Positions 2,373 through 19,008 of a stretch of 64,000 nt of DNA are shown here, one piece after another. Made by a program: the position numbers and the translations under genes. The DNA comes from Halorubrum salinum (GTDB lineage: Archaea; Halobacteriota; Halobacteria; Halobacteriales; Haloferacaceae): the NCBI RefSeq assembly GCF_024494575.1, contig NZ_JANHDO010000001.1:124001-188000 (forward strand). The letters run 5' to 3'. Under the pieces are notes generated by a model that made no database searches, was not told where the DNA came from, and saw nothing but the letters and a program-made list of their open reading frames with translations. How positions within the stretch are numbered: position 1 is the stretch's first letter; every line of letters starts with the position of its first letter.

Positions 2373-2843
2373 TTACGCCTCCACCCGGAACTGGAACAGT
2401 TCCTCGTCGCCGTTGACCGTCAGGTACACGCGGTGGTCGGTGCCGGAAGCGAGGTTCCCGACGTCTATCGTGAGCCGGAGCACGTCGCCGCGGCTCCACG
2501 CCGCGCCGTCGCCGGCGGAGACGAGCTCGCCCGTTTTCGCGTCCGGTCTGACGTACGATCCGTCGAAGAGCACGTCGAGCCCGGAGCCGTCGGGCGCGAG
2601 CCGGTAGGTGCCGGTGTTCTTTATCAAGAGCGTGACGGTGTCGTTGCTCGCGTCGTACACACCCCCGCCCGGGTCGGAGATGACCGTGACGTCCGTGCGG
2701 AGCGTCTCGGTCGCGTCCAGTCCGGCGTCGTCGACGGCGGCGCTCACCCGGTCGACGCCGGTCGTGATCGTCCCCACGACGCCCGCGGCGATCACGAGGC
2801 TCGCGATGAACAGGATCAGGTGTGAAACGGGAACGCTCGCCAT
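2373..2843 (-). CDS. arlG: Archaellum stator protein ArlG (FlaG)
   Basis: 156 aa with one N-terminal membrane segment (about residues 7-27, HLILFIASLVIAAGVVGTI) followed by a beta-rich domain expected outside the membrane. In the family, ArlG and ArlF form the pseudoperiplasmic stator complex that contacts the S-layer. It starts directly after arlF ends (2844) and stops directly before arlH starts, so the three genes are packed with no spacer. Assignment rests on position, topology and the conserved N-terminus. Confidence 0.9.
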   Translation of the reverse strand: MASVPVSHLILFIASLVIAAGVVGTITTGVDRVSAAVDDAGLDATETLRTDVTVISDPGGGVYDASNDTVTLLIKNTGTYRLAPDGSGLDVLFDGSYVRPDAKTGELVSAGDGAAWSRGDVLRLTIDVGNLASGTDHRVYLTVNGDEELFQFRVEA

Positions 2844-3317
2844 CTAGCTCACCTCCGTCACGGTGGCGGCGTCGCGGACGCCGGACTCGACCACGAGGAC
2901 GACGCGGGTCTCGCCCCCGACGATAGCGGTCGAGAGGTCGGTATCGTCGACGTCGACGACCAGCTCCTCGCCGCCGAGCCAGAGGTCGGTATCGCCGTCG
3001 CCGTCGACGGTCGTGTCCGCCGCCTCTCCGCCCACGTCGACGTACTCGTTACCGACGACGAGCGTCGCGTCGCCGGCGACGAGGCCGACCGCGCCGTCGT
3101 TTTCGGCGGTCACGGTGAGCGTGTCGGTTCCCGTATCGAACGTCGCGTTCGTCACGGTGAAATCGGTGTTCTGCTGTTGTAAGGCGCGCTCGTGCATCCC
3201 GTGTTGGGCGTCGGTGACGCGGTCGAGGCCGTTCGCGGCCACGGGGTAGAACGTCGTGAACGCGAAGAACAGCCCCGCGACGATGATGGCCGTCGAGGCG
3301 GAGACGCTAACGCCCAT
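2844..3317 (-). CDS. arlF: Archaellum stator protein ArlF (FlaF)
   Basis: 157 aa. The N-terminal hydrophobic segment (about residues 6-27, ASTAIIVAGLFFAFTTFYPV) is followed by an Asp-rich beta-sandwich-like domain. ArlF family proteins bind S-layer protein and anchor the archaellum. The start at 3317 lies inside the 3' end of arlCE (an 11-nt overlap), indicating translational coupling. It abuts arlG downstream. Confidence 0.9.
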   Translation of the reverse strand: MGVSVSASTAIIVAGLFFAFTTFYPVAANGLDRVTDAQHGMHERALQQQNTDFTVTNATFDTGTDTLTVTAENDGAVGLVAGDATLVVGNEYVDVGGEAADTTVDGDGDTDLWLGGEELVVDVDDTDLSTAIVGGETRVVLVVESGVRDAATVTEVS

Positions 3318-5223
3318 CGCCCCACCCTCCGTCGGCCGGATCGGCCCGGTCGGAACGCGGGTTCGGATCGTTCATCGGTCGCGGCGACCCGCCGTTCCGG
3401 TCGCGCTCGCTCGCTCGCTCGGTGCGGCGGTCGGACCGCTCGTCGCGGCGACCGTCTCCTCCCTCGCGGTGGGCGGACCGATCGGTCCGCGCGTCGGCGT
3501 CCGGGTCGTGTCCGTTCTCGCGGCGGCCGTTCGCGTCGCGGCGGTCCTCTCCGTCGCGTCTGCGACCGTCGCCGCGCCGATCGCTCCCGCGGCGGTCGGG
3601 GTGGCCACGAGACCCCCCTCGGCCGCTTCGTCCGTTGATCGACGGTGCGCCCCCTCCCACGAGCGACCCGCCGGCGAGGTCGTCCCACCGGTCCAAGAGC
3701 ATCAGGTGACCGCTCGTCCCGTTGAGCTGGGTCACGTATCGGAGACTCCGCGTGTGGTGTTCGCGGACCAGTCGGTCCGTGCCGGGGCGGTCGACGACGT
3801 TGCGGTCGATCGTACCGAACCCGGAGAGGAAGTCGCGCAGCCGCGCGGCCGCCTCCGGCCCGACCCACTCGATCCGCTCGTAGTAGTTGATCGCGCGAAC
3901 CGCATCCGTGACGTCGCTCTCGGAGACCAGGAACTCCAGCCACTCCATCACGAGGAGGTCGCCGACGTAATCGCCGGGAAGCTCCGTGAGGTACGGCTTT
4001 CCGCGCCCGCCGGAGAGGTCGTCCGTGCCGACGTACTCGAAGCCGTCGCCGCTCGCCTCTGCGGGGTCCCCGCCGGGGCGTGGGCCGCGCGAGCGATCCG
4101 GTTCGGGCTCGGCGTGACTGCTCGGTTCGGGTTCCGGCTCTGGTTCGGCGGGCTCGTCGGCGAAGGGGTCCGCGTCGGACGCCTCTTCGTCGAAGCCGTC
4201 CCCGGCCCCGAAGCCGTCGTCGGCGTCGTCGAAGCCGTCGTCGGCGTCGTCGAAGCCGTCGTCGGCGTCGTCGAAACCGTCGTCGGCGTCGTCGAACGGA
4301 TCGACCTCGTCGTCCGCGCTCTCGCCCGGCTCGTCGAACGGGTCCGTTTCGTCGCCGGGGCCGTCGTCTCCTTCGTCGGCCCAGTCGGCCTCCCCGGCGT
4401 CGTACTCCTCTTTCAGCTCGCTGAAGCTCTTTCCATCGTCGTTCATGTCGTCTCCGTCGTCCGCCGTCGCAGTCTCGGACGCGGTGGCGGTATCGCCGTC
4501 GTCCGTCTGTTCGTCCGCCTCTAGCTCCCCGAACGCGTCGTCCTCGCCGTCTCCGTCTTCATCGAACTCGTCGTCGAGGAGGTCGTCGTCGAAGAACCCG
4601 TCCGCGTCTGCGCTCGCGACGTCCTCGTCGAGGTCGTCGTCCTCGCCGCCCTCCTCGTCGTCGTCGAAGAGGCCGAACGACCCCTCGCCGCCGCCGCTGA
4701 CGCTGTCGAACCCGCTCGAATCGTCGACGAACGGGTTGATGCCGCGGGTGACCATCTCGTAGATGTCGAGCAGGTTCCGAACGTCCTCTTCGATGTCGTC
4801 GACCGCGGCCGATATCTCCTCGTTCTCCGACCTGACCGTCGAGACTGTCGACGACAGCGAGGCGACCTCGTTTTCGAGGTCATCGAGCCGTTTTTCCAGC
4901 TCGTCGGTGTCGGATCCGCCGCCACCGCCCCCGTCGTCGAAGCCGTCGTCCCACTCGTCCATGCCGTCGAAATCGTCGAAGCCGTCACCGCCGCCCATGT
5001 CTCCGCCCATTCCGCCGCCACCGCCCATCCCTCCGCCACCACCCATCCCTCCGCCGCCGAAGGGGTCGTCGTCGCCGCCCATGCCTCCCGAATCGTCGTC
5101 GGATCCGTCATCGTCGTCGAGAAACCGATCGAGGACGCTCGCACCGACGAGCCCCAGCGTGGCGACTATCCATGCAGCCGTCGGAGCTCCCCACACCGGT
5201 AGTTCGAGGCCCATTACCAGCAT
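3307..5223 (-). CDS. arlCE: Archaellum switch protein ArlCE/ArlD (FlaCE/FlaD), greatly expanded
   Basis: About 638 aa, long for this family. In haloarchaea ArlCE and ArlD connect the motor to CheF/CheY signalling. Order of parts: a short N-terminal hydrophobic segment; Gly/Met and Asp-rich low complexity; a coiled-coil stretch near residues 105-155 followed by the conserved RNLLDIYEMVTRGINPF; a long acidic region with tandem FDDADDG units; the FlaD/E domain (KPYLTELPGDYVGDLLVMEWLEFL with NYYERIEWVG), here given by its key residues; and a tail of about 110 residues very rich in Arg, Asp and Gly. The start is uncertain: ATG at 5223 is chosen, ATG at 5214 and GTG at 5238 are in frame. A TATA-like run lies at 5255-5262. 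It heads the arl operon. Confidence 0.88.
   Translation of the reverse strand: MLVMGLELPVWGAPTAAWIVATLGLVGASVLDRFLDDDDGSDDDSGGMGGDDDPFGGGGMGGGGGMGGGGGMGGDMGGGDGFDDFDGMDEWDDGFDDGGGGGGSDTDELEKRLDDLENEVASLSSTVSTVRSENEEISAAVDDIEEDVRNLLDIYEMVTRGINPFVDDSSGFDSVSGGGEGSFGLFDDDEEGGEDDDLDEDVASADADGFFDDDLLDDEFDEDGDGEDDAFGELEADEQTDDGDTATASETATADDGDDMNDDGKSFSELKEEYDAGEADWADEGDDGPGDETDPFDEPGESADDEVDPFDDADDGFDDADDGFDDADDGFDDADDGFGAGDGFDEEASDADPFADEPAEPEPEPEPSSHAEPEPDRSRGPRPGGDPAEASGDGFEYVGTDDLSGGRGKPYLTELPGDYVGDLLVMEWLEFLVSESDVTDAVRAINYYERIEWVGPEAAARLRDFLSGFGTIDRNVVDRPGTDRLVREHHTRSLRYVTQLNGTSGHLMLLDRWDDLAGGSLVGGGAPSINGRSGRGGSRGHPDRRGSDRRGDGRRRDGEDRRDANGRRENGHDPDADARTDRSAHREGGDGRRDERSDRRTERASERDRNGGSPRPMNDPNPRSDRADPADGGWGDGR
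4210..4293 (-). repeat. 21-bp in-frame tandem repeat inside arlCE (4 units)
   Basis: Four consecutive 21-bp units, at 4210, 4231, 4252 and 4273. Three are identical and the fourth differs by one base. Each encodes the heptad DDADDGF on the minus strand. The unit is a multiple of three, so copy-number change would lengthen or shorten the acidic linker without breaking the frame. Confidence 0.95.
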
Positions 5224-5315
5224 CAACCCGCAGAACACACTTTAATGCACCTCTCAAAATATCAACAGTGAGAAGACGGCGCGTGGACGGCTCGGAGCGT
5301 TCGTTCGAGACCGGC

Positions 5316-5846
5316 TCAAAGCGTCCGTTCGAATCCGTCTGCCGCTCGGACCACGAGCCCGCCGTCGGCCCGGAGCTGCACCGTCCGTCCGACGCCGTCG
5401 CCAACGTCGCTCGCGACGATCGGCACGCCGGCCGCCGCGAGCGACTCCTCGGCTCGCTCGACGTTTCGCGGTCCCACCGCGTCGGTGAGGTCCAGCATCT
5501 CTGCGCCCCCGGCGATGCGCGCTTCGAGCCGGTCGCCGGACGCGCCCGACCGGCGGAGCCGCTCGATCAGCGTCGCGATACCGGCGTCGACGTACTTCGC
5601 CGGCCGGGCGGCCGCGGAGCGAGCGTCGTCTTCGCTCGGCAACATCGCGTGTAACAGCCCGTGCACTTCGGCGTCTCGATCGACAAGCCCGACGGCGACG
5701 CACGACCCGAGTCCGCTCGTGGTGAGCGTCTCGCCGTCCGTCGCCACCGCCAACTCGCCGACGCCGACTCTGATTCGTCCGGGGTCGACGCCGGTCTCGT
5801 CGCTCTCGGAGGCCCGCCGGCCGCGAGACGGCGACGAGTGGCTCAC
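5316..5846 (-). CDS. cheD: Chemoreceptor glutamine deamidase CheD
   Basis: 176 aa. CheD deamidates or demethylates receptor residues and interacts with CheC in chemotaxis. The catalytic Cys lies in GLGSCVAV and the His in HGLLHAMLP, the two signature elements of the family; a later GGAEM segment also fits. Its start overlaps the end of cheC by 4 nt, so the order cheY-cheC-cheD is one operon. The gap to arlCE is about 90 bp and holds the arlCE promoter region. Confidence 0.95.
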   Translation of the reverse strand: MSHSSPSRGRRASESDETGVDPGRIRVGVGELAVATDGETLTTSGLGSCVAVGLVDRDAEVHGLLHAMLPSEDDARSAAARPAKYVDAGIATLIERLRRSGASGDRLEARIAGGAEMLDLTDAVGPRNVERAEESLAAAGVPIVASDVGDGVGRTVQLRADGGLVVRAADGFERTL

Positions 5847-7051
5847 GGCTCCGAGAGCTGTGCCAGCGCGTCGGCCAGTTCGCGCTCGTCCGGGAGCGCG
5901 TACACGTCACACCGCGCCTCGACGCCCTCCGTCCGGATCGCGGCGTCAATCACGAACCCGTAGTCCTGTCGCTGACTCAGCTTCGCGACGAGCGGGCTGA
6001 TCGTCGCGGAGCCGATGTCGTGGACGAACTCGGGCGGCGAGTGCGCGATGGACGTGCCGAGCACGTTCGCCCACCCGTCGATGAATCCGCTCGTCATCAC
6101 GTTTCCGAGCTCACAGAGGGCGTTTTCGGCCATGTCTCCGAGCGGTTCGTCCGGCTCCATCGGGAGCATCGCCTCCGCGATGGTCGCCGCGGAGGACTCC
6201 TCGAAGAGGATCGCGAGGTAGCCGCTCGGCTTGCCCTGTAGCTCGAACACCGTCCCGGCGTGCGGCTCGACGCCCACCTCGGCCGGCACGTCGGCGAGCG
6301 GGACGAACCGGAGCCGGCTCACGTCGACCGTCGTCTCCAGCCCGGTCATCATCGCGATGTTGTCGGCGGCGTTCGCCGAGCCGCGCTTGGCCAGCGACGC
6401 GAACGTCGAAAGCGACTCGTACGGGACCGCGGGGCCGCCGACGTCGCCGTCGCTTCCCCCGGCCGCTGCCGCCTCGGTTCCCGGCGCCGCGGCCGCCGCG
6501 GTCTTCCCGACGATGAGGTCGCGGAACTGCCCGGAGTCGGGAAGCATGTAGATCGAGAAATCCAGGTCCGTTGTCGTCGCGTCGAGCCGGCTCTCGAAGA
6601 GGAACACGCCGTCGCCCGCGAGCGCCCCGTCGGGGAGCACCGCGGCACCGTCCGCCTCGAAGTACCGCGGCGGCGTCATGTCGATCGCCGTACCGAGGTA
6701 GTTCGCCCAGCCGTCGAGGAACCCTCCCAGTGCGATGTTGCCGACCTCGCTCACCGCGCTGTGGCCCATCGACTGGCCGCCGGGCAGAAGCGACAGGAGG
6801 GCGTCGACGTTGTCGGCGTCGAACGCGAGCACCGCCTCGCCCTCCAGTCCGCCGCGGAGCCCGACGCTCACGCCGATGGACTCCCTGCCCGCGAACGCCT
6901 CCGCGAGATCCTCGCCGCTGGCGACGCTCGCCCCGGTGACCTCGACCGCGAGGTCGGTGCCGGTCAGTTCGGAGAGCGCGTCGGCGGCCTGTTTCGCCCC
7001 CCGCTCCGAGAGGCGGTTGCAGGCACCGAGCGCCCGGACGTCGACGCGCAT
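5843..7051 (-). CDS. cheC: Two-domain chemotaxis protein CheC
   Basis: 402 aa made of two CheC-like domains (roughly residues 1-190 and 215-402) joined by a Gly/Ala-rich linker. CheC proteins dephosphorylate CheY-P and bind CheD. Each half has the phosphatase-like signature with E-x2-N and a later Pro: SAVSEVGN...MTPP in the first, NALCELGN...HSPP in the second. The second has Asn where the consensus has Asp or Ser. The ATG at 7051 overlaps the cheY stop by one base (TAATG), so reading frames that begin further upstream are not the start. Double-domain CheC proteins are known in haloarchaea. Confidence 0.93.
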   Translation of the reverse strand: MRVDVRALGACNRLSERGAKQAADALSELTGTDLAVEVTGASVASGEDLAEAFAGRESIGVSVGLRGGLEGEAVLAFDADNVDALLSLLPGGQSMGHSAVSEVGNIALGGFLDGWANYLGTAIDMTPPRYFEADGAAVLPDGALAGDGVFLFESRLDATTTDLDFSIYMLPDSGQFRDLIVGKTAAAAAPGTEAAAAGGSDGDVGGPAVPYESLSTFASLAKRGSANAADNIAMMTGLETTVDVSRLRFVPLADVPAEVGVEPHAGTVFELQGKPSGYLAILFEESSAATIAEAMLPMEPDEPLGDMAENALCELGNVMTSGFIDGWANVLGTSIAHSPPEFVHDIGSATISPLVAKLSQRQDYGFVIDAAIRTEGVEARCDVYALPDERELADALAQLSEP

Positions 7052-14795: not shown

Positions 14796-16214
14796 TCAGA
14801 GCTGTTCTCCCACCAGCCTGTCGGCCTCCGCGAGGAAGGCGTCCCGCTCGTCGATCGGGATCGTCGCGCCCGCGGCGACGTCGTGGCCGCCGCCGTCGCC
14901 GCCGACGGCGCGGCTGGCCTCTCGCATCACGGCAGAGAGGTCGAGTCCCCGCCGTACGAGCGCGTGCGACCCGCGCGAGGAGACCTTCAGTTCATCGGCG
15001 CTCTCCTCCGCGAACGCGATCACGGGCTTCGAGCGGTCGACCGCCGGCGACCCGATCGCCATCCCGGCGATGATGCCGACGATCGTCTCTCGGATCCGCG
15101 AGCCGGCGTCGAACCACTGGAGGTTCTCCTCGTGGGTGACGCCCTCCGTTTTCACCCACTGGAGCCCCTCCGAGAGGTTCCGGCGGTGGGTTCGGAGCAG
15201 CCGCCGCGCCTCCGCGAGCGCGTCGACCCGGTCGCCGAGACACACCGCGAGCCCGACGTCCGCTCGATCGTACCGCGCGGTGGCGTTGAGAAGCGTGGAG
15301 AACTCGCTCACGTCTCGCAGTTCGGTTCCGGCCTCCTCGTCGACGAGGGTGTAGGAGGTGCCGACGAGCGACTCGATCCGGTCGGCGGGAACGCCGGAGG
15401 CGACCGCGCGGCGCATCAGTCCGGAGGCGAGCGTCTGTCGCTCCGCGGCGTCCAGGTCGACCCAGCGCCGCCACTCGCCGTCGCGTTTCGCGTCGATATC
15501 GAGGTCGGCGAGGAAGGATATCGCGCCGGCCTCGTCGTTCGAGACACCGGGTATCGTCACGTCGGAGGCGTACTCCAAGAGCTTCGGGAGCGGGCGGGTC
15601 TGTCGCCCGTACAGGTCGAGATCCGTCCGCGTCTCGATCACTCCGGCGTCGACCCCGTCGCGGACGATGGCCGCGTTGGCACCGACGAGCTCGCCGTCGG
15701 AGTCCTGCATGTCGCCGACCGCGCCGACGACGGCCAGCGCGGCGAGGTCGCGATTGTCGCCGTCGGACCCTTCGAGCGCCCGCGCGAGGACGTAGCTCGC
15801 GCCGGCTCCGGACAGCTCGCTCGCGCCGTTGATCCCTTCGAGGAGCGGGTTCAGGTGGAGCTCCGTGTCGGCGTCGGCCGGCTGGTGATGGTCGGCGATT
15901 ACGGGCGTGAACTCGCCCGCGGCCTCGTGCTCGGCGATGGCGTCGAGCTGTCCGGAGCCGAAGTCGGTGAAAAGCACCGTCTCGTAGCCCGTTGCAGCGA
16001 TGCCCTCGATGGCCGCGTCGTCGAGCTGTTTCTCGAAGACGACCTCGTGGTCGATGCCGGCGCGCGCGAGTGCGGTCGACGCGACCGCGGCGCTCGTGAG
16101 CCCGTCGGCGTCGATGTGCGACGCGAGGAGGACCCGATCCGCCGCGCGCAGCCGCTCGGCGCACGCGGTCGCGCGATCGGCCAGATCCGGAACGGGAGAG
16201 TCGGCGACTGCCAT
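14796..16214 (-). CDS. DHH-family phosphoesterase / RecJ-like nuclease
   Basis: 472 aa. The N-terminal DHH domain has motif I SHIDADG, a second-motif Asp (LFTDFGSG) and the DHH motif IADHHQPAD. The C-terminal DHHA1 domain ends in GGDGGGHDVAAGA, the Gly-His signature. Archaeal RecJ-like proteins act as single-strand nucleases, some associated with the replisome (GAN). The start at 16214 is supported by a TATA box (GTTTAT on the minus strand, near 16243). Which archaeal RecJ subgroup it belongs to is not decidable here. Confidence 0.88.
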   Translation of the reverse strand: MAVADSPVPDLADRATACAERLRAADRVLLASHIDADGLTSAAVASTALARAGIDHEVVFEKQLDDAAIEGIAATGYETVLFTDFGSGQLDAIAEHEAAGEFTPVIADHHQPADADTELHLNPLLEGINGASELSGAGASYVLARALEGSDGDNRDLAALAVVGAVGDMQDSDGELVGANAAIVRDGVDAGVIETRTDLDLYGRQTRPLPKLLEYASDVTIPGVSNDEAGAISFLADLDIDAKRDGEWRRWVDLDAAERQTLASGLMRRAVASGVPADRIESLVGTSYTLVDEEAGTELRDVSEFSTLLNATARYDRADVGLAVCLGDRVDALAEARRLLRTHRRNLSEGLQWVKTEGVTHEENLQWFDAGSRIRETIVGIIAGMAIGSPAVDRSKPVIAFAEESADELKVSSRGSHALVRRGLDLSAVMREASRAVGGDGGGHDVAAGATIPIDERDAFLAEADRLVGEQL

Positions 16215-16336: not shown

Positions 16337-16363
16337 GGCAACAGTTGCCGTAACTGGCAGTTA
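16337..16363. promoter_or_regulatory. Two adjacent 13-bp palindromes at the metY promoter
   Basis: GGCAACAGTTGCC (16337-16349) and TAACTGGCAGTTA (16351-16363) are both perfect apart from the central base and are one base apart. The second overlaps a TATA-like TTATAGA (16361-16367) placed about 30 nt before the metY ATG. This is a strong candidate repressor site for metY-metX. Confidence 0.65.
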
Positions 16364-16393
16364 TAGATGTGTCTAGATATATGCACTACACAC

Positions 16394-17707
16394 ATGACAC
16401 GTGGGTTCAACACCCGGAGTCTCCACGCCGGTGCCGAGGTCGATCCGGCGACCGGGTCGCGCGCGACCCCGATCCACCAGACGACCTCGTTCGTCTTCGA
16501 CGACGCTGACGCGGCGGCGGACCTGTACGCCCTCCGAGCGGAGGGCAACGTCTACTCGCGGATCGCGAACCCGACCGTGCGCGTCCTCGAAGACCGTCTC
16601 GCTGACCTGTCCGGCGGCACCGATGCCGTCGCCACCGGTTCCGGGATGGCGGCGTTCGACGCGATCACGACCGTGCTCGCGAGCGCGGGCGACAACGTCG
16701 TCGCCAGCTCGGAGATGTACGGCGGCACCGCGTCGTACCTGTCGACCATCGCGAATCGCCGGGGGATCGAGACCCGGCTCGTCGACACCCTCGACGTCGA
16801 CGCCTACGAGGAGATGATAGACGACGACACCGCGTTCGTTCACGTGGAGACGGTGGCGAACCCCTCGCTCGTCGTTCCCGATTTCGAGGCGATAGCCGCC
16901 ATCGCCCACGAGCACGCGGTGCCGCTCGTGGTCGACAACACGTTCGCCACCCCGTACCTCTGTCGGCCGTTCGAACACGGCGCGGACGTCGTCTGGGAGT
17001 CGACGACGAAGTGGATCACGGGCAACGGCACGACCGTCGGCGGCGTCGTCGTCGACGGCGGCCAGTTCCCGTGGGACCACCCGGACGCCGACTACGACGA
17101 ACTCGACGGGCAGTCGCCGTCGTTCCCGATCGATTTCGTCGAGCGGTTCGGCGATTCCGCCTTCGCAAACGTCGTCCGCCAGCGCGGCGTGCGGACCACC
17201 GGCGGCCAGCAGTCTCCCTTCGACGCGTGGCAGACGCTTCAGGGGCTCAACACGCTCCCGCTCCGGATGGAGCGCCACTGCGAGAACGCCCGCGCTGTCG
17301 CGGAGTTCCTCCGCGACGACGACCGGGTGGAGTGGGTGACGTACCCCGGATTCGACGACCACGACAGCCGCGAGAACGCCGAACGGTATCTCGACGGCGA
17401 CGGGGGGATGGTCACGTTCGGCGTCGACGGCGGCTACGAGGCCGCGAAGACGCTGTGTGAGTCCGTGGACCTGACCAGTTTCCTCGCGAACATCGGCGAC
17501 GCGAAGACGCTCGTCATCCACCCCGCCTCGACGACGCACGCGCAGTTGGACGAGACCCAACAGCGACTGGCCGGCGTCTTCCCCAACATGCTTCGCCTCT
17601 CCGTCGGTATCGAGGACGCAAACGACGTGATAGCCGACCTCGACCGCGGGCTGGCCGCGGGTGAGCGCGCGGCGGACGAGGCGGGAGCCGACGGGTCGGA
17701 GGTGTGA
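16394..17707 (+). CDS. metY: O-acetylhomoserine sulfhydrylase (MetY)
   Basis: 437 aa, PLP-dependent Cys/Met metabolism family. It would make homocysteine from O-acetylhomoserine and sulfide. Seen: N-terminal [17 protein letters not shown], the substrate loop [12 protein letters not shown], a tyrosine-bearing VYSRIANPT, and the PLP lysine in STTKWITG. The length fits MetY rather than the shorter cystathionine gamma-synthases. The next gene, metX, makes its substrate and overlaps it by 4 nt. The ATG at 16394 is chosen since MTRGFNT matches family N-termini and the TATA spacing fits. Confidence 0.93.
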
Positions 17708-19008
17708 CTCGCGTGAGCGCCATTCCAACCGACCACGGCGTCGCCGAACTCGGCGAGTTCACCTTCGAGTGCGGGCAGTCGGTCCCGGAGCTGGAGGTGG
17801 CCTACGAGACGCACGGCGAGTTCGAGGGCGACAACGTCGTGCTGATCTGTCACGCGCTCACCGGCAGCCAGAACGTCGCGCGCTCGCCCGCGGCCAGCCG
17901 GGATGAGAGCGCCCGCGGAGCCGGGCAGGCCGGGCAGGCCCGCGCGTGGTGGGACGACATCGTCGGCCCCGGGAAGGCGATCGACACGACCGAGTACTAC
18001 GTCGTCTGCGCCAACGTCCCCGGTTCCTGTTACGGGACGACCGGACCGACGAGCGAGCGACCGCCCGACCTCGATCTCCCCGACGAGCCGGACCACGACC
18101 GGTGGGGGACCGCGTTCCCGCCGGTGCAGGTCGAAGACTGGGCGCGCGCGCAGCGCCGCCTCCTCGATCACCTCGGCGTGGGTCGGCTGCGAGCCGTCGT
18201 CGGCGGTAGCGTCGGCGGCATGAACGTCTTGGAGTGGGCGAAGCGGTACCCGGACGACGTCGACCGGATCGTCGCGATCGCGACCGCCGGCCGTCTCGAC
18301 GCGCAGTGTCTCGCGCTCGACGCCGTCGCTCGCCGCGCGATCCGCGCGGACGCGCACTGGAACGAGGGGAACTACTACGGTGACGACCGGCCCTCGCCGG
18401 ACGAGGGGCTCGCCTTGGCCCGACAGATCGGCCACATCATGTACCTCTCGAAGGCCTCCATGGAGCGGAAGTTCGGCCGTCGCTCTGCGGGTCGCGACTC
18501 GCTGACCCGCGAGGAGGGCGACCTCGGGCTCCCGCCGGAGCCGACGGCGGCGTTCTTCCCGTATCGGGAGGTCGAGTCGTACCTCGACTACCAGGCCGAG
18601 GGGTTCAGCGAGCGGTTCGACGCGAACAGCTACCTCTACCTCACGCGCGCCATGGACGAGTACGACCTCTCCGCGGGCCACGGCACCGACGCGGACGCGA
18701 TCGCCGCCTTCGAGGGCGAGGCGCTCTTGGTGAGCTTCACCGCCGACTGGCACTTCACGGTCGAGCAGTCCGCGTCGCTCGCGGACGCCTTCCGCGAGCG
18801 CGACGTGCCCGTGGCTCACCACGTGATCGACTCCGATCACGGTCACGACGCGTTCCTCGTCGAACCCGAACACGTCGGGCCCCCGCTCCGCGACTTCCTC
18901 GTCGACGGCGTCGCGGGCCGTGCCGTCTCCGACGACGGCGGCGACGACGAGGACCCGCGTCCCGAGTCGGACCACGCGCCCGTCCACGCGAGCCTGTTCA
19001 GGGGATGA
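17704..19008 (+). CDS. metX: Homoserine O-acetyltransferase (MetX)
   Basis: 434 aa alpha/beta hydrolase-fold enzyme using acetyl-CoA to make O-acetylhomoserine. The nucleophile elbow is [12 protein letters not shown], the catalytic His sits near the end in SDHGHDAFL, and the oxyanion segment [10 protein letters not shown] is near residue 45. The GTG at 17704 overlaps the metY stop by 4 nt, giving translational coupling. Together with metY it completes the direct sulfhydrylation route to homocysteine. Confidence 0.94.

Follow-up and report, generated by a model that had tools for sequence, protein, structure and literature searches.

A Conserved Double Palindrome in Haloarchaeal metY-metX Promoters, Probable Core of a Class-Wide Operator

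The metY-metX Locus of Halorubrum salinum

The window that we have analyzed, a stretch of 64 kb from Halorubrum salinum, contains two overlapping genes of the homocysteine route, metY and metX, which we have named with NCBIfam and Pfam profiles. The spacer separating them from a divergent gene for a RecJ family nuclease measures 179 bp, from the recJ-like start (16214) to the ATG of metY (16394), rather than the about 120 bp given in the first-pass annotation. The features of the locus are the following, with fractions referring to the 75 aligned promoters presented below.

14796..16214, minus strand: RecJ family nuclease gene, divergent from metY (NF053576, 658 bits)
16337..16349, plus strand: dyad 1, GGCAACAGTTGCC, centre 16343; kept form GCRR-NNN-TTGC
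16345..16355, plus strand: TTGCCGTAACT, best kept of the upstream sequence, located at the BRE and immediately above; exact in 58/75
16351..16363, plus strand: dyad 2, TAACTGGCAGTTA, centre 16357; kept form TAACY-NNN-RGTTA
16360..16366, plus strand: TATA box (box 2), GTTATAG, replaced by GYGCATA or similar in other genera; GTTAT in 57/75, YGCAT in 17/75
16378..16386, plus strand: box 3, TATATGCAC, the -10 element plus a conserved GCRY, possibly an extra half site; TAT in 75/75, TATGC in 55/75
16390..16397, plus strand: region of the predicted transcription start together with the ATG of metY (ACACATGA), near-leaderless; ACATG in 71/75
16394..17707, plus strand: metY, O-acetylhomoserine sulfhydrylase (homocysteine synthase; TIGR01326, 527.9 bits, cut-off 495.1)
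17704..19008, plus strand: metX, homoserine O-acetyltransferase, overlapping the metY stop (NF001209, 392.8 bits, cut-off 331)

The two dyads are perfect palindromes separated by a single G, the second of which extends into the TATA-like GTTATA at 16360-16365, the sole candidate TATA box; both can be read exactly where the first-pass annotation had placed them. Such pairs are rare by chance, as that annotation maintained: the window has 64 palindromes with 6-bp arms and a 1-base spacer, among which these two form the sole adjacent pair (gap of 0-3), while first-order Markov resampling yields a mean of 0.05 adjacent pairs per 64 kb (60 replicates) and none in 4000 when the spacer itself is resampled. 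Each palindrome occurs once in the whole genome, with no mismatch allowed. This evidence needs qualification, for the comparison of sequences indicates that the perfection of the 6-bp arms in the window is partly luck, relatives keeping the shorter forms GCRR-NNN-TTGC and TAACY-NNN-RGTTA. Conservation does not extend to the exact palindromes that had been suggested for searches, the left one being exact in 2/75 promoters and the right one in 7/75. Similarly, the interval originally delimited (16337-16367) does include both dyads, but important parts fall outside it, for example box 3 at 16378-16386.

A Fixed-Spacing Element Over the Core Promoter

Our alignment sample derives from 124 sources, in 100 of which sites were found. 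Two rows were dropped, L049 as spurious (minus strand) and L030 as divergent, if probably real (45 bits), and 23 near-identical rows were then removed from the remaining 98, leaving 75 divergent haloarchaeal promoters. The distance from block to start is constant in the 98 rows, and the 75 promoters were aligned by MAFFT without gaps. They define an element of about 60 bp with fixed spacing, GCRR-NNN-TTGCCGTAACT-NNN-RGTTATA-N14-TATGCRY-NNNN-(R)YACATG, the final ATG being the start codon of metY. Columns within the element carry up to 2.3 bits of information, those of the preceding 16 bases about 0.1.

Among the dyad centres tested in a scan of the 75 promoters, position 16357 scored best (0.74) and 16343 second (0.63), every other centre remaining at or below 0.53; shifting the partner columns by 1-3 lowers the paired cells from 76.8% to 27-40%. 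Dyad 2 fits TAACY-NNN-RGTTA in 54/75 promoters, and GCRR-NNN-TTGC is found in 39/75, the left half of dyad 1 being degenerate and its right half nearly invariant. We do not claim a third dyad at 16388, for which columns 46-48 pair with 58-60 while the inner pairs misfit. With respect to the core promoter, dyad 1 with its TTGCC lies above the BRE, dyad 2 covers BRE and TATA, and box 3 occupies the -10 and start region. Conserved sequence of dyad symmetry is therefore found over BRE and TATA, as in an operator. The excerpt of PMC4983044 gives the haloarchaeal consensus as TTWT for TATA, CGAAA for the BRE and WW for the -10 element. A start around 16389-16392, which fits the distance from the TATA box, would produce the near-leaderless mRNA that is usual in haloarchaea.

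Box 3 includes an out-of-frame ATG (16381-16383), 13 bases before the metY start and present in 67/75 promoters. Its reading as an upstream ORF is disfavoured, because TATT replaces it in 8/75 and transcription is predicted to start downstream of it. In two loci, L324 and L325, the ATG inside box 3 opens a frame running into metX.

The symmetry of the dyads could in principle belong to RNA, with GCRR-NNN-UUGC and UAACU-NNN-RGUUA forming hairpins in a 5' leader that would work as a riboswitch or provide a binding site. A purine opposite T, equivalent to G-U in RNA, is indeed common at two pairs (31/75 and 43/75). However, no compensatory change beyond that of shuffles was found in the dyads among the 75 promoters, so that their two-fold symmetry has sequence conservation as its sole basis; moreover, the sole TATA box is downstream of the dyads or overlapped by them, and above dyad 1 there is no conserved block rich in AT. 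A search of Rfam returned no family at gathering score, including those of SAM and SAH riboswitches. The latter control genes of the metX and metY type in bacteria, and differ from the metY element in being RNA leaders rather than DNA around a TATA box. Given the absence of compensatory changes, of Rfam matches and of an AT-rich block above dyad 1, we consider RNA hairpins extremely unlikely.

A more serious alternative is that of an activator which, bound to TTGCCGTAACT just above BRE and TATA, would recruit TFB and TBP, under methionine shortage, to a TATA box that is weak, with the match of GTTATA to the dyad reflecting in part the constraint on TATA itself. In its favour, TTGCCGTAAC is the best-conserved block, sits at and above the BRE at an identical distance from the TATA box in all aligned rows, and stays where the TATA arm becomes YGCAT (17/75). 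Activation from the TTGCC half is possible. Yet RGTTA faces TAACY in more promoters (54/75) than a TATA box requires, and the site extends into BRE and TATA. We regard this explanation as tentative, with a modest chance of being correct, and moderately prefer repression because the best-kept dyad overlaps BRE and TATA.

Distribution Across Haloarchaea

Searching public genomes with MetY yielded 80 loci. From the 75 promoters we built a sequence-only profile, R1, of 62 positions, the matches of which hold by construction in the training loci and are only partly independent of the model in genomes beyond them. According to this profile, the element is present in 48/49 haloarchaeal metY-metX loci, many of the 48 being training rows and L044 being the miss. 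Haloarchaeal loci without metX downstream have no strong match (0/12), L055 showing a weak one (E 0.03), and the element is present in none of the 19 bacterial metY loci. In a phylum-wide sample, the profile matches 50/53 genomes of the order with E<=0.05, and 48 of them reach E<=8.3e-6; a single strong site per genome is found in 32/39 genomes examined.

A strict pattern allowing up to two mismatches is present in 130/194 genomes of the class, and metY lies directly behind the site in all of the best 30 pattern matches. All 64 genomes that do not have the strict pattern possess a MetY homologue. Among the best 30 loci of these 64 genomes, a variant element was recognized by script in 22 and by eye in L147 and, partly, in L130, while the upstream part is lost or strongly changed in six (genus g7 with four, g17 with two); g20 is a further genus where the element is lost or changed. 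Variant loci differ mostly by having GYGCATA in place of GTTATA in the TATA arm. Haloferax marinum has the complete element.

Outside the order, weak matches appear in 32/241 genomes (best E 6.1e-4); at the 10 places that we read, in 9 genomes, none adjoins metY or metX. Four of these places were examined closely (L316, L320, L322 and L323) and proved to be inside other genes, at their ends or next to them. The matches outside the order were attributed to chance. Second pattern matches within the order were read at 20 places: one (L171) corresponds to metX, and the rest, located in genes, near unrelated genes or in unannotated spacers, were also considered chance.

These results bear upon the view that no specific regulator is involved and that the element is a strong core promoter of unusual conservation, serving for example one of the TFB/TBP pairs, of which haloarchaea have several. 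The element does match the positions of BRE, TATA, -10 and start. However, a pair of general factors would be expected to serve many such promoters, while strong matches number one per genome and most of the second matches that we read lie inside genes or arise by chance; besides, the conserved TTGCC and GCRR reach above the BRE. This view consequently appears very improbable. The first-pass annotation had named as its refutation a lack of conservation in the metY promoters of related species. The outcome was the opposite and favours the finding: the site first noticed in a single genome is conserved throughout the class, with specificity for metY and metX promoters.

Flanking genes indicate to which side the element belongs. 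The RecJ gene is upstream of metY in Halorubrum only and lies outside the conserved element, its place being taken in other genera by genes such as those for a MoxR-like ATPase or a DNA ligase (named by eye). Since the upstream genes vary between genera, the element pertains to metY and metX, not to the divergent gene. Clustering of the genes flanking 62 loci revealed metY and metX as the only constant ones, serB-like and other genes occurring in 12 loci at most; over 5 kb, no gene for a regulator accompanies them consistently.

metX Promoters and the Search for Further Targets

In several genomes, a separate copy of the element precedes metX where this gene stands alone or comes first in its operon (L021, L171, L232, L324, L325 and L326). 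L021, L324 and L325 have two elements per locus, metX comes first in L326, and the copy of L232 has diverged; box 3 also precedes the stand-alone metX of L021, L171, L232 and L324. The element is consequently linked to a gene set, metY and the metX copies, rather than to promoters in general, as expected of an operator. In L325 (genome G043), bioD-, bioF- and bioB-like genes, identified by eye, lie at 2737-6972 and separate metX from metY, both genes retaining an element of their own.

In a distant small genome (L239/L328), the metX promoter carries CCGTAATTATCAGTTATA, which resembles dyad 2. The gene has a leader (read by eye) in which AAAGGAGAA precedes the ATG, and box 3 is absent. This combination of dyad 2 and leader without box 3 suggests that dyad 2 is the functional core, box 3 being tied to the leaderless start. 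No profile match was found in the two metX loci of Halovenus (L059 and L060).

The start of an aspartate kinase gene in genome G021 (L233, 939 onward) resembles box 2 and box 3, with TATATAA ... TATGCGTA. Here the start ATG is box 3 itself, and either chance or a pathway link is possible.

Weak profile matches also led us to an inverted repeat, GCATA-N14-TATGC, which precedes a gene of the NhaC family in many Halorubrum genomes (G000:C1:773594-773617; L253, ~1501-1524). NCBIfam identifies the gene not as a methionine transporter ('metT'), which it had seemed to be, but as the arginine/ornithine antiporter ArcD (724.1 bits, cut-off 650). Its membership in the regulon was dropped, as the exact site occurs in 2/30 arcD loci (59 genomes searched); the repeat was not seen in arcD loci of genera other than Halorubrum, and in Halorubrum it is possibly a separate operator. 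Two Halorubrum genomes (L252, L254) also keep GCATAATCAAG-YAATAATATATGC, flanked by a CBS-domain gene on one side and a small divergent gene on the other.

A Probable Operator and Its Proposed Regulator

The explanation that we favour takes the double palindrome as the core of an operator of metY-metX, class-wide and probably read by a dedicated protein that is encoded elsewhere. A repressor relieved by methionine shortage seems most likely, although we infer the regulator as well as its ligand and the sign of its control. A dimeric or multimeric DNA-binding protein would occupy both dyads, which are spaced 14 bp from centre to centre, and possibly box 3 too. Under sufficient homocysteine or methionine, the bound protein would exclude TBP, TFB and RNA polymerase from the promoter, to be released once methionine, S-adenosylmethionine or a precursor runs low. 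The half sites TTGCC of dyad 1 and RGTTA of dyad 2 are unlike, so that a single protein might not read both dyads. The first-pass annotation had suggested a repressor controlling the homocysteine route; its site is conserved and specific to metY and metX, and fits a protein-bound DNA operator in its absence of covariation and its position over the TATA box.

Those operators of archaeal repressors that overlap BRE and TATA are palindromic sites expected to block TBP and TFB. The metY element has the same placement and differs from them in being class-wide, with one operon per genome. MetJ, MetR and SahR are bacterial regulators with many targets per genome. In the excerpt of PMC4239095 they appear as transcription factors for the homocysteine and methionine genes of Proteobacteria, and their likeness to the system proposed here is one of role.

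Which protein could read the element? One candidate is a member of the Lrp/AsnC family resembling LrpA1 of Halobacterium salinarum. The excerpt of PMC2894021 describes a repeat in the lrpA1 promoter at -31 to -25 and -12 to -6; comparing positions, not letters, these match box 2 and box 3 if metY transcription starts around 16392. In several genera, GYGCATA of box 2 and TATGCRY of box 3 form an inverted repeat, yet this symmetry is missing in most genera, the window included. The LrpA1 site is like the metY element in concerning amino-acid metabolism and a leaderless gene, as predicted for metY; its inverted repeat over TATA and the -10 element has a counterpart at metY in some genera. It differs in that lrpA1 is autoregulated, while the metY element, again compared by position and not by letters, has two dyads further upstream and is absent at Lrp genes. 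Indeed, the 62-position profile detected no element in or near the promoters of 30 Lrp-family loci from five genomes, so that a site at the regulator's own gene, characteristic of the LrpA1 type, was found in 0/30. We consequently judge the Lrp candidate unlikely, while keeping it as a lead.

One group of Lrp/AsnC genes (L210, L211, L214 and L219) shares AYTCGTAAA-N-TTNTA-NN-CCC about 45 bases before the start in four genera, possibly an autoregulatory site of this group, which has CGTAA in common with the metY element. Lrp-family matches on contigs C3 and C5 of genome G000 are paired with identical scores, suggesting a duplicated or misassembled region.

Since the site accompanies metX and metY, has no other strong target in the scanned genomes and no regulator gene travelling with it, the element might instead be read by an orphan, single-target regulator, possibly MetX or MetY repressing itself; we give this idea a very small chance.

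Implications for Methionine Control in Haloarchaea

Our full-text literature searches found no description of the element or of a haloarchaeal regulator of metY and metX, in agreement with the initial remark that methionine control in haloarchaea is little characterized. As a kind of site, palindromes over a core promoter are ordinary; what makes this one useful as a lead is how deeply it is conserved, its restriction to one operon and the fact that no regulator of it is known. It is unusual, and counts against our explanation, for a sensor of a central metabolite to have its operator throughout the class at just one operon. The dedicated regulator that we favour would raise a question in evolutionary terms: Why keep a regulator across the whole class for a single operon? 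With its invariant positions now named, the element offers a precise, class-wide bait of about 60 bp for finding a methionine regulator of haloarchaea.
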